A stretch of DNA of 23,436 nucleotides, taken from positions 1 to 23,436 of IMG/VR virus record IMGVR_UViG_3300017971_000773. One strand, written 5' to 3'. The notes under the pieces are model-generated. The model saw only the letters and a list, made by a program, of their open reading frames with translations. It searched no databases and was not told the DNA's origin. A program made the translations under genes and the position numbers. Each line of letters starts with the position of its first letter. Within the stretch, counting starts at the first letter, position 1. This stretch comes from a virus. Below, piece after piece: positions 3,575-19,991 of this stretch.

Positions 3575-5104
3575 TTAAGCACCCTGCGGGGACGGGGTTA
3601 ATTGGTTTAGCGTCCGGCGGTTTAGCCGCTCTTGGCTACTCTCGAACCGTTCCGCGGCCTCGCTGGCAACCGCCGCCGGATCCGCCTTATTGCTTGTTAC
3701 GTTGATCTCTACTTTCGTGTTTTGATTACTGCTTACGTTAGGACGCCCGGCCGCCGCGGTAGTAGCCGCCCCCGCCGCTACGGTTGCCGGGCCGGTTGCG
3801 GCGTTTACGCCCTCATTTGCGCCGAAAAACAGATCCGCCACTTTATCCCCGAAAAACGATCCGACCGTCTTAAATGCGTCCGCTATTCGTTTTGGGATTT
3901 CAGCTATAAGGTTAAAGAATTCCTCTACTTTTTCCCGCGATACGTCAAACCAAAAGGTTATAGCCGTTATTAGGATCTCTTTTATAGCCCCGGCTATACT
4001 GCCTACTTGCTCTAGCCAATAGTTAAACTCCTCTATTAGGCCGCCTATAACCGAGTTACCGCCCTCCCCCATTGCTATTAGATCGTCGATTACCGCATAG
4101 ATCGCGAAACCAATAAGGCCCAACAAAACGATCGGGAGGCCCAAGATCGCTACCAAAACCCCGAGGATAATAACCACTTGGGTTATAGATTCCTCGAGGC
4201 CCAAAAATTCCTTAGCCATAAACACGATCAGATCGTTAATCTGAATAAAGCCCTCTGCAATTAAAGAGGCTACATCCCATATTGCGCTAAAAACGGCTTG
4301 GACTACTTTAGCCGCCCGGACAAGTGGGCCGGACATAGATCGGGCAAGATCTCGCATTGTAACCACAAAATCCGCGGCCGTAGGTAAGAATACGGCCCCG
4401 ATATCGGCCTGCAAATCCTGAAAGGCCCCGGCTAATCCACGTTGGGCATTTGCGAAACCGTCCGCGGTTTTTGCGGCGTCCCCTACGGCCCCTTGCTCGG
4501 TTAGTCGCTGCAAAATCAGGTTATACCTAAGGCTCGTTTTTTCGGCCGTAGTCATAGCCTTGGTTGATTTTGTGATCCCTTGCTCTAACGCAAATTGCGC
4601 TAGGGCGGCCTCCCTAACGTCGATACCGAGGGTAAGCAAAGGCTCGGACGATCCAACCAAACCGGCCCGCAATTTATCAAGGGCTACGTTAGGTTCGAGG
4701 TTTTGAAAGCTAGCTATATCGAAAGCTAGGCCGGTTACCCCTTGCGCCATTTCCGCGGCGGCCTCGGTAGTGCCTAGCATTGGTTTAAGTAGGGCCCCAA
4801 TATCGGCGGACATACCTTGAATCACGGCCCGCGATTGGCCGATCTCGTTTGCGGTAGCGTCCGAAAACTCTAGCATTTCGTCGGTAAGATCCCCGAATAC
4901 GGCCCCTAATTTATTGGTTACCTCGGCGGCATCGCTAGCCGCGTCGATCATGCTTTTAAAGCCTTGGGCTACAACCCCGGCGGCAAAAAAGGCCCCTACC
5001 GCTTTTACGCCCTTGGTTATTTTTCCCAAGGATCCCTCTACCTCTTTTTCGGATCCCTTATCTACCTTAAAGCCTAAAAGGGCTACCAATTCCCTAACGA
5101 CCAT
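3575..5104 (-). CDS. Tail tape measure protein
   Basis: 509 residues; the longest tail protein here and located right after the frameshifted chaperone, as expected. The N-terminal part is helical and Ala/Gly/Asp-rich (LVALLGFKVDKGSEKEV, FKSMIDAASDAAEVTNKLG), the usual start of tape measure proteins with internal PTGLAF-like repeats (QGVTGLAFDIASFQNLEP). Residues about 308-340 are a continuous hydrophobic region (VVIILGVLVAILGLPIVLLG...), a membrane segment likely to help DNA ejection across the inner membrane. The end is Ala/Thr-rich and then polar. From the common ratio of about 0.15 nm per residue, tail length would be roughly 75 nm (inference). The start overlaps the end of the frameshift extension by 11 bases. 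Confidence 0.92.
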   Translation of the reverse strand: MVVRELVALLGFKVDKGSEKEVEGSLGKITKGVKAVGAFFAAGVVAQGFKSMIDAASDAAEVTNKLGAVFGDLTDEMLEFSDATANEIGQSRAVIQGMSADIGALLKPMLGTTEAAAEMAQGVTGLAFDIASFQNLEPNVALDKLRAGLVGSSEPLLTLGIDVREAALAQFALEQGITKSTKAMTTAEKTSLRYNLILQRLTEQGAVGDAAKTADGFANAQRGLAGAFQDLQADIGAVFLPTAADFVVTMRDLARSMSGPLVRAAKVVQAVFSAIWDVASLIAEGFIQINDLIVFMAKEFLGLEESITQVVIILGVLVAILGLPIVLLGLIGFAIYAVIDDLIAMGEGGNSVIGGLIEEFNYWLEQVGSIAGAIKEILITAITFWFDVSREKVEEFFNLIAEIPKRIADAFKTVGSFFGDKVADLFFGANEGVNAATGPATVAAGAATTAAAGRPNVSSNQNTKVEINVTSNKADPAAVASEAAERFESSQERLNRRTLNQLTPSPQGA

Positions 5105-5788
5105 GTTTTCTCGCTTTCGCTTTTCGCCTTATTTCCTCTTGTGCAAAGTATTCGGAATCCTCCCTAGCGTCTAGGATCTCGTTTGCGGCCTGTACTTCCG
5201 TTATATCCCAAAAACGCCGGATTTCCTCTAGCGTAGCTACCGGGGGGTTATTGGTAACTAGCCGCCATATCGACCATTGGCGGCCTATGCGGGCGGGTAG
5301 GGTTATTCTCCCAGGATCGATCGCTGGCCTACGAACCTTATAGCGTCCGGGATTGTCTCGAAAAAAGATCGTAATTGGACGTTTAGGCCCCAAGCGGCCC
5401 ATTTATACATTAGGCCAATACGGCCCATAAAAACCACTTGAAACGAGCCTGATAACTTACCCTTGCCGTCTATAACCGTTACCTTGGCTAATTCCTCCAT
5501 TATCCAACGGGAGGTTTTAACGTCCAGGTTTTGAAATAGCTTAGATACGCCGCGGGCCAAAAATTCCGGGTTTACTTTCTTATCTAGCAGATCCGCGCTT
5601 TCCTCGATCTTGTCTTTTAGATCCTTGCCGTCCTCTTTTGCCATTGTAGCCCCGATCAACTCCCCGATCGATGGGCCTATAACCTTGCTTATGGCGTGTA
5701 GGATCTCATTAGCAACCCAAGGATCAAGCATACCCATAGTAAACGTAAGATCCTCTAGGGTTATGGTTTCGGTTGTTTGTTGCGACAT
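5094..5788 (-). CDS. Tail assembly chaperone, -1 frameshift fusion product
   Basis: Product predicted if ribosomes slip back one base at T_TTT_TTC (5366-5360). The zero frame is read from 5788 to the TTC codon ending at 5360; after slipping, base 5360 is read again and the frame continues with CGA GAC AAT CCC to a stop at 5096-5094. That gives 143 zero-frame residues plus 88 new ones (RDNPGRYKVRRPAIDPGRIT ... RRKAKARKHGR), 231 in total. The extension includes VATLEEIRRFWDITEVQAANE, a helical stretch like the T part of gpGT, and ends strongly basic. The extension has no start codon or ribosome site of its own that looks usable: the in-frame ATG at 5402 sits deep in the zero frame. The tape-measure start overlaps its end. 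Confidence 0.8.
5303..5788 (-). CDS. Tail assembly chaperone, zero-frame product
   Basis: 161 residues from the chosen ATG at 5788-5786 (MSQQTTETITLEDLTFTMGM). A further in-frame ATG exists at 5833, but it has no Shine-Dalgarno and begins right after a terminator T-tract, while 5788 is preceded by AAAGGGG with five bases spacing, so I prefer 5788. Helical, with a repeat of LLDKKVNPEFLARGVSKLFQ and TSRWIMEELAKVTV. Located between tube and tape measure, the place of lambda gpG-type chaperones, and contains the slippery site that makes the longer gpGT-like form. Such proteins coat the tape measure during tail assembly and are absent from the mature virion. Family assignment relies on place, frameshift and helical character. 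Confidence 0.82.
   Translation of the reverse strand: MSQQTTETITLEDLTFTMGMLDPWVANEILHAISKVIGPSIGELIGATMAKEDGKDLKDKIEESADLLDKKVNPEFLARGVSKLFQNLDVKTSRWIMEELAKVTVIDGKGKLSGSFQVVFMGRIGLMYKWAAWGLNVQLRSFFETIPDAIRFVGQRSILGE
5360..5366 (-). other. Slippery heptamer T_TTT_TTC for -1 frameshifting
   Basis: Reading the minus strand in the chaperone zero frame gives CGA TCT TTT TTC GAG. The heptamer T TTT TTC fits the X_XXY_YYZ rule, keeping pairing of both tRNAs after a one-base backward slip. The zero frame ends about 55 bases downstream (stop 5305-5303), and the -1 frame is open from before this point to 5094. No strong pseudoknot is obvious to me just downstream; a weak CCAG...CTGG stem is possible. 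Confidence 0.85.
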
Positions 5789-5936: not shown

Positions 5937-6359
5937 TTAAGGAATACCTCCGGTAAGGATAAGCAGATTATCGGTTTCTAGTACCCATTCCCGGTTTTCG
6001 GTTTCCCGGGCATAGGTGGCGTTCGCCGGTTGTTGCAACCAAGCGGATTCTGCTTTAACCAAATCGACGCCGGAAAGATCCTTGATTAGGAGCGGTAAAA
6101 CACCGTCCCCGCTTTGCTCGTCTAACAGACTTTGCGCCGTTAAAAGGGCGTTAGTTAGGGAGGATTGCAAAAGGGTAACCGTAACGGTGCCGGATTTATC
6201 ATTAGAGATCGCCCGGCAGGCGTCCCCCGTAGATCCAACCGCAAGGTTAACGGACGGATTATTACGGGCCGCCTCGATAAACGTACCGTCCGCAAAACCC
6301 TCCATTATGATCGGGCCCCAAGCTACAATTACTTTTTTCGGGTTATACGTAGCCGCCAT
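5937..6359 (-). CDS. Tail tube protein (DUF3277-like)
   Basis: 140 residues. Pattern of the contractile-tail tube family: N-terminal MAATYNPKKVIVAWGPIIME, then GFADGTFIEAARNNPSVNL with the VGSTGDACRAISNDKSGTV turn, the TVTLLQSSLTNALL strand-helix and a QSGDGVLPLLIKD loop. These proteins stack as hexamer rings to make the inner tube. It lies directly after the sheath gene, and the ribosome site is TAGGAGC (6374-6368 complement) followed by TTAAGAAA before ATG, the same strong site as in sheath, capsid and cement genes. High expression is thus expected. Confidence 0.9.
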   Translation of the reverse strand: MAATYNPKKVIVAWGPIIMEGFADGTFIEAARNNPSVNLAVGSTGDACRAISNDKSGTVTVTLLQSSLTNALLTAQSLLDEQSGDGVLPLLIKDLSGVDLVKAESAWLQQPANATYARETENREWVLETDNLLILTGGIP

Positions 6360-6378: not shown

Positions 6379-7878
6379 TTAAACTGAAAGGGTGCCCACG
6401 ATATCGGCAAAATGGATCGCCCCGGCGTAGGTTCCTCTAAATACGATATCTACGGCCTTTCTTTCGGCGCGATCGTTGGGGTTAACGTCCGATACGAGCG
6501 GGACGGTAACGACGGGTTGCGGGTTATCGGTAAGGATTTGCCCCGATCCTCCCCCGTCCCGGGTTGCGGATTGCAAAACGGAATCCACGGTGCCCTGGAT
6601 CGCCCCATAGCCCGCGTCCGTATAAGGGATCTTGGGGTTGTTTCGGAAAAGTAAAAATACGTCCTCTTTAATCCGTTGGATGATCCAATCCGTACCGCGG
6701 ATTATGTCAATAAACTCCCCTACGTGCATTACCCCCTCGGCAAGCATTGGTTCCCCAAAATACTCTATGTAATGGTTTCCATTTTTAGCGATCAAGGTAT
6801 TGCGTTCGCCGGTAGTGAAGCTATCGAATACTTGCCCCACGATTTCCTTAAATTTCCAAGTAGACGCCCCGGGATCGGTTGGGAATTGCTTACCGTAAAC
6901 CCCGGCAACAAAACCGTTATGGGGATCTGATTTCCAACAACCGCCGGATCCCTCGTAAGACTTGGCCTCGAGGTTACTAAATGCGTCGTCTGTGACGGCT
7001 TGATCCAGGATATCGGTATCTTGGCAAGCCCATAAATGGATCTTATCCAAGGTTTCGACATAGGCCGCCGCGGCGTCCGCGGTTGCCTCGTCGTACCAAT
7101 CCCCGGTTACCCCGTACCATGTATCGTTTACATTCCGTACCGCGGCAAGATCCGCCGCGATCCCGGCGTCCGGGGTATTGTCTTTAGCGTCGAAAAGGGC
7201 CCGATCGAATTCAACAGAAAACGGGGCCCCGGCTTGGGCGGATCCGCCGGGGGCGTCCGCCGATTGCACGTCTAGATCGGTGGAATTATCTACACCCCTT
7301 ACATTTTGCTCGGGGCCTTGGTAATCCCAAGTAACCGTACCGTCTACTTGCCCGCTACCCGTACCGCTCGGGCCCGTAGATCCCGAGGTACCGGCAACCG
7401 TGCAAATATAGATCTTATTATCCGCCCTAACATGGTCGCCAACCGCGTAAGCGGTAGTAGCCAACCAAGCGGTTTGGGTAAGCGCGGCAACCAAGCCCGC
7501 GGTAATTTCCGCGGCGGTAGGCGTGGTATCGGTAGTAAAATCGAATTTAGTACCGCCTACCTCGAGCCTATAGAGGGTTTCGCTGGCTACCGGATCTACC
7601 GGGAGGAAATTAACGATCCTCGTCGGTTGATTTTGGCGTTTACCCAAAACGAATTTATCAACCTTGGGGCTTTGCCCAAGCAAAGCGGCGGCAAAAATGT
7701 AGGCCGGATCGCTCGAGCTAAATCCGTCGTCCGTCATTTCGTCGAGGGTTGAATATTCCTTAGCTACCTCGGGGATCGTGTCGTGCGTCATAAGCAAAAG
7801 CGGCGTATTGAAAGATACCCGCGTAATACTAGCGGTAGCCCGCGTAACGGATACCTGAATAATATTTTGCTCTGCCAT
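6379..7878 (-). CDS. Tail sheath protein (DUF3383-like) with inserted carbohydrate-binding-like domain
   Basis: 499 residues. The N-terminus (IIQVSVTRATASITRVSFNT, ILLLM-type strand, YSTLDEMTDDGFSSSDPAY) and the C-terminal part (ELIDIIRGTDWI-like FIDIIRGTDWIIQRIKEDVF, NPKIPYTDAGYGAIQGTVDS) match the DUF3383 family of sheath proteins. The C-terminal region has the conserved closing strand block (RGTYAGAIHFADIVGTLSV). Residues about 138-188 (DNA 7315-7467) form an extra module: WLATTAYAVGDHV, then YICTVAGTSG-STGPSG and DGTVTWDYQG. This is the look of the small aromatic-rich carbohydrate-binding-like modules seen in phage fibres, here inside the sheath. Ribosome site TAGGAGC at 7892-7886 complement. 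Expected role: contraction that drives the tube into the cell. Confidence 0.9.
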   Translation of the reverse strand: MAEQNIIQVSVTRATASITRVSFNTPLLLMTHDTIPEVAKEYSTLDEMTDDGFSSSDPAYIFAAALLGQSPKVDKFVLGKRQNQPTRIVNFLPVDPVASETLYRLEVGGTKFDFTTDTTPTAAEITAGLVAALTQTAWLATTAYAVGDHVRADNKIYICTVAGTSGSTGPSGTGSGQVDGTVTWDYQGPEQNVRGVDNSTDLDVQSADAPGGSAQAGAPFSVEFDRALFDAKDNTPDAGIAADLAAVRNVNDTWYGVTGDWYDEATADAAAAYVETLDKIHLWACQDTDILDQAVTDDAFSNLEAKSYEGSGGCWKSDPHNGFVAGVYGKQFPTDPGASTWKFKEIVGQVFDSFTTGERNTLIAKNGNHYIEYFGEPMLAEGVMHVGEFIDIIRGTDWIIQRIKEDVFLLFRNNPKIPYTDAGYGAIQGTVDSVLQSATRDGGGSGQILTDNPQPVVTVPLVSDVNPNDRAERKAVDIVFRGTYAGAIHFADIVGTLSV

Positions 7879-17484: not shown

Positions 17485-18081
17485 ATGGGCAGAATAGCAA
17501 AGCAGATCAAATCTAAAATGGGTATCCATTCTAAACTAGCCCTAGATCTTGAGGATACGATCGGGGATCTCGAAAGGGTAGAGGATCAACTAGAACGGCT
17601 AGAGGTTTACAGCATACAGAAAGTGATCAAAAGCCTAAATAAGGCCCATTCCGATTTAAAGCGCAATTTTCGGATCGATCGATTGGTTGCGGCCTGCATA
17701 TCGGGAAAATGCGTTTTAGAATTCAACCAAGCGGATCGGGACGTACCGATCGCGGGGCCCAATGGTGCCGCCGCCGGTACGTTTAAGCGGCCCCTCGTTT
17801 TAACCGTGAAAACACTAAAGGGCGAGGTAATAGAAGTATTGGACGGAATAGCCCCAGCCATTACCCCGGCTAAAAGCGGGGCCGGTTTTTCGGATCCTAC
17901 CATTTCCCCGGCTAGCCCCGTTTTCGTAAAGGGCCGCGCTAGCCTGGATCTTATCTACACAACCGACGAGGGATCCTCCGAAATTTACGCCGCGGACGAT
18001 ACGGTTAGCCTTTCCGCGGATCTGTCGGTTTGCGGTATAGATTTGGATCAAGTGATTTATACGGATACGCTTATAGCGTAA
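17485..18081 (+). CDS. Hypothetical protein, coiled-coil plus beta domain (reversed cassette gene 1)
   Basis: 198 residues on the + strand, opposite to all neighbours except the next gene. The start has a good site (GAGGT seven bases before ATG). Residues about 16-62 are a charged helical/coiled-coil region (LEDTIGDLERVEDQLERLEV, KVIKSLNKAHSDLKRN). From about residue 90 the protein turns beta-rich with small residues (KRPLVLTVKTLKGEVIEVLD, GRASLDLIYTTDEGSSEIYA) and resembles an immunoglobulin-like or decoration domain only in character. I do not recognise a family. No signal peptide or membrane segment. Codon and word usage look like the rest of the phage. It could be a virion accessory protein or a moron. 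Confidence 0.8.
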   Translation: MGRIAKQIKSKMGIHSKLALDLEDTIGDLERVEDQLERLEVYSIQKVIKSLNKAHSDLKRNFRIDRLVAACISGKCVLEFNQADRDVPIAGPNGAAAGTFKRPLVLTVKTLKGEVIEVLDGIAPAITPAKSGAGFSDPTISPASPVFVKGRASLDLIYTTDEGSSEIYAADDTVSLSADLSVCGIDLDQVIYTDTLIA

Positions 18082-18164
18082 CCGATCTTTTTGCCGCCCT
18101 TTTGGGTGCCTAGCATTGCTAGCCTAATCAATTTAACGCCGCATAGCGGCAAGGAGTTAGCGTT

Positions 18165-19310
18165 ATGGCTAAACAGACCTTTGAATTCGATACAGAGCAA
18201 CAACCGGCAGAGCTTACGTTTGCTCAACTTAAGGCCTCGATTGAGGCTTACGCCCTGGCCAATAGCCTTAATAGCCTTAAGGTGCATAGCACCAAAACAA
18301 AACACGGTAAAAAAATGCTAGAGGGCTTTGCTACTTGGGGTAAGGGGGATCTTTCGCAAGAAAACCTCGAGGGGTTATCCCTGATTATTTCCTCACAGCC
18401 CGGCCTTGTCGGTTACTCGCCCCCGATCCCCGAGCCTTTGATCTTGGACGTAGCAAACGATCTTGAGGCGGCAGAGGGAACCTTCCCAGCCGTTACCGGC
18501 GTTACCGCGGCTACGGGTACGCTCGAGCTATTAATGCCGGGCGGGGTTGCCCCTGCCGGTTGGGATGGCAAAACCGTTACCTTGGATAATGGCGTAGACG
18601 ATCCGACTGTTTTTGAGTTCGATAGTGACGGATCGGTCGTTGAAACCGACTATCTTAGGGCTATCAATTTTACCGCCGGGGATTCACTGGCTACGGTTAT
18701 AGCCGCCGCCCAAGCCGCTTTTTTTAATGCACCCTATTTGAATATGTCCGTTGTTAATAACGGAACTACTGCGGACGCAATCCGGGTTAAGTATATTAAC
18801 AACTATCTCGGTACCGTTGGTAACGTCCCGATCCAAACCACCTTCTTGGGATCCGAGGCAACCGTTACCGGAATGGAGGGCGGGGCAAACGCCGAGGGGG
18901 CCATTATCGAGATCGGTACCGTTAACGATCTCTTTCAGACCTTTGAAATGGCGCAATTAACGCCCGAGGGGCTTAGCATTTTAAACGCTACCAATGCCGC
19001 CGGGTACCCGCATACTTTTGTTGAATTGTACTCGAGACAAGCCGCGGCCCCGGGCCAAGACGGTACACCGGAATGGACGGTAGATCCCGGATCGTTAACC
19101 ATTAACGGATCCCTCGTTTTGCAAAACCAAAACCCGATCGTTATGCCCGCCACTACGTTTTATTCCAAAGAGCAAAGGATCTATTACGTAGACGACGATC
19201 TTAAGCTCTATTTGGCGTATGCGTTCGGCTTGGTTGCGCCAAATCAACCGGGCGTAAATACGGTACCTTGGCGATCGTTCGACGAGGCCGTTTCTTTTGG
19301 GGCGGTTTAA
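18165..19310 (+). CDS. Putative virion appendage/fibre-type protein (reversed cassette gene 2)
   Basis: 381 residues on the + strand with a strong AAGGAG site eight bases before ATG. Residues about 15-80 form a helical N-terminal part with LNSLKVHSTKTKHGKKMLEG. Residues about 131-240 have the layout of a module I know from phage tail-fibre and decoration proteins: DGKTVTLDNGVDDPTVFEFD, GDSLATVIAAAQAAF and YLGTVGNVPIQTT. The last part is rich in aromatic residues (FYSKEQRIYYVDDDLKLYLA). No collagen-like repeats or receptor-binding tip can be named. The gene follows the previous one by 83 bases; its TAA shares bases with the stop of the convergent minus gene. A terminator follows at 19325. Probably a structural protein; precise role unknown. 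Confidence 0.82.
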   Translation: MAKQTFEFDTEQQPAELTFAQLKASIEAYALANSLNSLKVHSTKTKHGKKMLEGFATWGKGDLSQENLEGLSLIISSQPGLVGYSPPIPEPLILDVANDLEAAEGTFPAVTGVTAATGTLELLMPGGVAPAGWDGKTVTLDNGVDDPTVFEFDSDGSVVETDYLRAINFTAGDSLATVIAAAQAAFFNAPYLNMSVVNNGTTADAIRVKYINNYLGTVGNVPIQTTFLGSEATVTGMEGGANAEGAIIEIGTVNDLFQTFEMAQLTPEGLSILNATNAAGYPHTFVELYSRQAAAPGQDGTPEWTVDPGSLTINGSLVLQNQNPIVMPATTFYSKEQRIYYVDDDLKLYLAYAFGLVAPNQPGVNTVPWRSFDEAVSFGAV

Positions 19311-19559: not shown

Positions 19560-19991
19560 TTATTCGGGATCGGTTGCCTCGTCTAGCTGTATTTTCCTGG
19601 CGTGTAACATAGCGTCCGCCTCTAAATAACGCATTTGGGCCCTAATGCCGATTATTTCGCCTACCTCAAAACTACGGGCCCCAACCATACGCCCCTTAAG
19701 GGCCTGGATTGCGGCGTCCCAGGGTATGTTTATTTGGCTAGCGAAAAAATCACGTAGCGGCATAGGGCCTATTGTTAGTTGATCATTTTCTACGTGGTTA
19801 GCTAAGCCCTCGGCGCAATCGCATTTAGAAAAATCTTGCCAATCCCAATAAGGGCAATTTTCCCAATGGCCTAAATGGTTTCTGTTTTCCGGGGCTGCCG
19901 GTATGTCTATAGGTGGTTTACTTAATTCCATTTTGTCCCCTTTCAATTCCGCCATTACTCTAGCGTAATGATCTAGCCTGCCTATCGGCAT
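19560..19991 (-). CDS. Hypothetical phage protein with Cys cluster, terS-linked
   Basis: 143 residues. The start shares one base with the terS stop (TAATG at 19993-19989), implying coupled translation; later Met13 or Met21 are alternatives. Middle part has a cysteine/tryptophan cluster (WENCPYWDWQDFSKCDCAEG, Cys46, Cys57, Cys59), perhaps metal-binding. The second half, GPMPLRDFFASQINIPWDAA and IIGIRAQMRYLEADAMLHAR, resembles a widespread family of small phage proteins of unknown function with the 'LRDxFA ... YxxADAML' pattern. No function can be assigned. Confidence 0.78.
   Translation of the reverse strand: MPIGRLDHYARVMAELKGDKMELSKPPIDIPAAPENRNHLGHWENCPYWDWQDFSKCDCAEGLANHVENDQLTIGPMPLRDFFASQINIPWDAAIQALKGRMVGARSFEVGEIIGIRAQMRYLEADAMLHARKIQLDEATDPE

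Follow-up and report, generated by a model that had tools for sequence, protein, structure and literature searches.

We identified a tail assembly chaperone gene that very probably uses a programmed -1 ribosomal frameshift to give a short and a long form of its product. The gene lies in a stretch of viral DNA of 23,436 nucleotides from IMG/VR, which is called the window here. Based on the gene's sequence and those of its relatives, we put the probability of this reading at about 0.94. The evidence in the window is suggestive by itself, and the comparative sequence data make what we consider a decisive case. An earlier note on this DNA had proposed a G/GT-type programmed frameshift, and this proposal is now supported by the identity of the gene, the gene order, the conservation of the site and of the extension, and published work on related myophages.

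The chaperone gene and its two reading frames

The zero-frame product matched Phage_TAC_15 (PF21822) in a profile search with an E value of 1.3e-9 and 39.1 bits, exceeding the curated cutoff of 22 bits, and it matched phrog_1613 with an E value of 7e-13. Compared with the corresponding protein of L002, a related IMG/VR contig, it was 41% identical by tblastn and 43% identical over the alignment. We preferred the start at 5788 to the longer ORF's start at ATG 5833 because a Shine-Dalgarno-like AAGGGG lies just 5' of it and the resulting MSQ N-terminus is common to L002. ATG 5833 has neither feature. The gene order is sheath, tube, chaperone and tape measure, all on the minus strand (Table 1). 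Profile matches and gene order agree with the earlier placement of the chaperone gene between the tube and tape-measure genes.

Table 1. Features of the predicted frameshift locus and its neighbourhood (window coordinates)
Feature	Coordinates	Strand	Basis
Tail sheath protein (DUF3383)	6379..7878	-	phrog_205 E 1.7e-88; PF11863 E 1.1e-31
Tail tube-like virion protein, upstream of chaperone	5937..6359	-	phrog_280 E 6e-35; KPP10_Orf10 PF11681 E 5.7e-6
Tail assembly chaperone, zero-frame short form TAC-N, 161 aa	5303..5788	-	PF21822, phrog_1613, L002 alignment
Candidate slippery heptamer T_TTT_TTC	5360..5366	-	Direct sequence; same heptamer in L002; slippery-type sites in 17/17 phages
-1-frame extension, 88 codons + stop; with chaperone codons 1-143, the predicted 231-aa TAC-NC	5094..5360	-	Open frame; L002 identity; HMM
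Tape measure protein gene, start overlapping -1-frame end by 11 bases	3575..5104	-	phrog_1535 E 2.3e-23

Read in the zero frame, the minus-strand sequence is TTA CGA TCT TTT TTC GAG, and TTT and TTC are the zero-frame codons within the heptamer. The heptamer is located near the 3' end of the gene, 57 nt before the end of the zero-frame stop codon. Direct reading showed that T_TTT_TTC at 5366-5360 had been given correctly to the base and register. Its description as a canonical slippery site also holds, with the X_XXY_YYZ register in the zero frame and a position upstream of the stop. As a bare string, TTTTTTC is no rarity, with 13 copies in the window against an expectation of 10.3. In the scored genes it occupies 2 of the 5790 in-register positions. 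The second in-register T_TTT_TTC, at 19749 on the minus strand, was rejected as a candidate; there the -1 frame stops immediately (CGC TAG).

The -1 frame reads ATC TTT TTT CGA GAC AAT across the site and stays open past the zero-frame stop to a TAG at 5096-5094, inside the tape-measure gene, whose start is at 5104. The computed slippage product has 143 + 88 = 231 residues with the junction LRSFF-RDNPG. The open frame down to 5094, the 88 added residues and the length of the fusion reported before are exact in the sequence. Over the 206 bases beyond the zero-frame stop, a given frame was open in 1.4% of dinucleotide shuffles. The only start codons in the -1 frame are ATG 5402 and TTG 5393, both 5' of the heptamer and inside the chaperone gene. 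No Shine-Dalgarno was found before either of them, and no -1-frame start codon follows the heptamer. These observations bear out the view that the extension has no plausible start of its own.

Other features of the neighbourhood were observed. A strong intrinsic-terminator-like hairpin (5887-5847, minus strand), with 13 pairs followed by CTTTTTTT, lies between the tube and chaperone genes, and may lower the mRNA for the chaperone and tape measure relative to that for the sheath and tube. Phage DIBBI has an annotated terminator in the matching tube-chaperone position (L016 5270-5297), and no terminator is apparent between these genes in L002. Residues 137-165 of the sheath protein gave a weak match to the carbohydrate-binding module CBM_5_12 (E 6e-5), below its curated cutoff. 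At 17485-19310 on the plus strand, two ORFs of 198 and 381 aa adjoin the terminase large subunit gene and run opposite to the structural module, which otherwise lies on the minus strand. No Pfam match was found for either ORF.

Conservation of the site and the extension in related phages

Searches of viral contigs with the chaperone, tube and sheath proteins and with the extension returned only L002 and an identical contig (L001), which adds nothing because it is the same phage as the window at the DNA level. No relative was found by a scan of genome contigs or by tblastn of both chaperone frames against phages, and 15 further phages were therefore reached via their sheath and tube genes. Two phages were left out: LIET2 (L011), whose chaperone is not separately annotated, and the Mooglevirus Sf13 (L014), whose record ends shortly after the chaperone. 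The resulting panel comprised 17 phages, namely the window phage and 16 relatives (L002 and the 15 further phages).

We found the -1 frame open for 110-269 nt past the zero-frame stop in all 17 phages. In most of them it ends no more than about 20 bases from the start of the tape measure gene. In VH-8 and CR3 the frame ends 36 and 64 bases short of that start, respectively, and in Rheinheimera phage barba 10-8B the -1 frame and the tape measure gene are separated by a gene on the opposite strand, which is annotated as DNA binding (L017 6039-6716).

A slippery-type site was found at, or no more than two codons from, a single column of the protein alignment in 17 of the 17 phages. L002 keeps T_TTT_TTC at the aligned site (GAT TTT TTC), and TTTTTTN is present there in 10 phages of the panel, among them the cultured relative POR1 with TTTTTTC. 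The sites of the other seven, which were picked by eye at the aligned column, are CCCTTTT (DIBBI), GTTTTTC (Faunus), GGTTTTT (PAK_P5 and Bitten), NTCTTTT with the codons TCT TTT (Phab24 and VH-8), and GGGAAAG (barba), the last being two codons downstream of the column. The TCT TTT sites of Phab24 and VH-8, which do not form a canonical heptamer, the displaced site of barba and the choice of the seven sites by eye count against the frameshift reading. Taking the heptamer and the overlap together in relatives that keep both frames, the claim of the earlier note survived, with slippery-type sites in every phage and TTTTTTN in 10 of them.

Furthermore, the codon before TTT (TCT, GAT, CGT, GGT, AGT, CCT or TGT) ends in T in all 10 TTTTTTN phages, and the residue closed by that T varies (Ser, Asp, Arg, Gly, Pro or Cys). 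When each phage's codon-usage probabilities are multiplied, the product is 2e-6 for a T-ending preceding codon and 1.6e-5 for the use of TTT instead of TTC as the first Phe codon; both products assume that the 10 phages are independent, an assumption that holds only approximately.

The -1-frame protein is also conserved. The -1 ORF of L002 shares 41% amino acid identity with the window extension, including FWDI..V..ANEILD. Past the zero-frame stop, the window and L002 differ mostly at the third position of -1-frame codons (30, 27 and 49 differences at positions 1, 2 and 3). Of the 27 identical residues, 18 are encoded by different codons. An HMM was built from the -1-frame tails of the 15 other phages, leaving out the window and L002, and was searched against all six-frame segments of the window. 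It matched the ORF at 5097-5402 with an E value of 1.9e-9, and the next match had an E value of 0.44. By these comparisons, the extension represents a genuine and conserved protein domain.

Eight extensions were tested against known families (those of the window, L002, L008, L010, L015, L016, L018 and L021). phrog_4364 was matched by 7 of the 8, and phrog_4625 and DUF6889 by 3 each. The window's own extension gave weak PHROG matches only (E 0.009 for phrog_4364 and 0.017 for phrog_4625) and no Pfam match. The families phrog_4364, phrog_4625 and DUF6889, all annotated as of unknown function, appear to correspond to the C-terminal half that the frameshift would add to the tail chaperone.

Stimulatory elements and alternative explanations

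RNA downstream of the heptamer in the window folded at the shuffle average (z between -0.2 and 1.4, nested folding). As far as nested structure is concerned, the earlier statement that there is no strong downstream pseudoknot holds. Inspection by eye showed no Shine-Dalgarno-like element 5' of the heptamer. Such stimulators are frequent in G/GT-type frameshifts without being obligatory, and both negative results weigh against the frameshift reading. In the panel folds, a lower-than-expected folding energy was seen only in Phab24 and VH-8, the phages with non-canonical sites, and to a lesser degree in ctsHD2. We give even odds to the combined proposition that the heptamer alone, without an RNA stimulator, works at a useful level and that phrog_4364, phrog_4625 and DUF6889 represent the frameshifted chaperone half across a wide range of contractile-tailed phages.

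The long form could also be produced by RNA polymerase, rather than the ribosome, slipping on the six-T run. The site is indeed a T6 run, and slippage on homopolymer runs is known (reviewed in PMC5009743). However, the homopolymer is not kept in the relatives, where CCCTTTT, GGTTTTT and GGGAAAG are found in its place or up to two codons away, and these motifs fit in-register tandem-tRNA slippage, not a simple requirement for run length. Six bases are, moreover, a short run for bacterial polymerase slippage, which counts against this explanation. Transcriptional slippage is less likely because the T run is not what the relatives conserve, and we regard it as quite improbable.

Annotators of related phages usually record the -1 ORF as a separate overlapping gene, which here would start at ATG 5402 and encode 102 aa. 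An ATG is present at the matching place in L002, but neither ATG is preceded by a Shine-Dalgarno, and ATG 5402 arises where the codons of a conserved Lys-Trp pair meet (AAA TGG). A start is absent from that place in most of the other phages, and several have none anywhere 5' of the conserved part. A separate gene also leaves the conservation of the slippery site and the surrounding codon choice unexplained. Since the only starts sit inside the chaperone gene and have no ribosome-binding site, we consider a separate gene highly unlikely. A chance combination of a functionless open -1 frame and a T6 run, which could appeal to the TTTTTTC string not being rare in the window and to the 1.4% chance of such an open frame, has a negligible probability and is already refuted by a -1-frame protein sequence that is homologous across divergent phages, with the frame open in all 17.

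Proposed mechanism and relation to known frameshifts

Under a programmed ribosomal frameshift, the majority of ribosomes would stay in the zero frame and produce the short form of 161 aa. In a minority, the tRNAs on TTT and TTC would slip back by one base at T_TTT_TTC and pair with TTT TTT, and tandem slippage of this kind is the simplest reading of the site. The slipped ribosomes would continue in the -1 frame, giving the 231-aa long form with its 88-aa C-terminal domain, and the slippery site would set the ratio of the two forms, as had been suggested earlier. By analogy with lambda gpG/gpGT, the tape measure protein would be covered by many short and few long forms, with the C-terminal domain recruiting the tube subunit, and both forms would depart before the tail is completed. 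The sequences themselves establish what the gene is, where the site lies and in which register, that the -1 frame is open, and that the extension is conserved and homologous among relatives. We infer that slippage occurs and that it is translational, and likewise its efficiency and the assembly roles of the two forms.

The lambda slippery site is G_GGA_AAG. As predicted for the window, lambda makes two chaperone products by a -1 frameshift in a gene that precedes the tape measure gene, with a gpG/gpGT molar ratio of 30:1 in the lambda model (review PMC5009743), but it is a siphovirus with another chaperone protein family. A parallel in gene content is found in phage Adele and its relatives, where a conserved -1 frameshift with GTTTTT in the chaperone gene was described for 56 alleles of Vandenendeviridae and also for Andersonviridae (PMC12846349). 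These phages share with the window the genome neighbourhood, related sheath and tube families, the -1 direction, a poly-T site near the 3' end of TAC-N and a -1 frame open up to the tape measure gene. They differ in the motif, which is GTTTTT there and T_TTT_TTC in the window, and are too divergent for tblastn matches with the window chaperone.

Frameshifts were also annotated by the authors of the genomes of the Felix O1-like myophages Moogle, Michonne and Mijalis (PMC5543628, PMC4319497, PMC4591319). They likewise have a chaperone gene with an annotated translational frameshift before the tape measure, but are distant in sequence. A putative frameshift was reported in Agrobacterium phage Milano (PMC6588377).

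We regard the finding as correct and ordinary; this type of frameshift is already known from lambda, Vandenendeviridae, Andersonviridae and Felix O1-like myophages. With it, the set of known chaperone frameshifts extends to a divergent, uncultured lineage of contractile-tailed phages. In this comparison the letters of the slippery site vary between phages, but the site keeps to a single homologous position or close to it. In deposited records of related phages, the downstream piece is given as a separate hypothetical protein or is omitted. Recognising this piece as a frameshifted domain would therefore make it possible to re-annotate phrog_4364, phrog_4625 and DUF6889.
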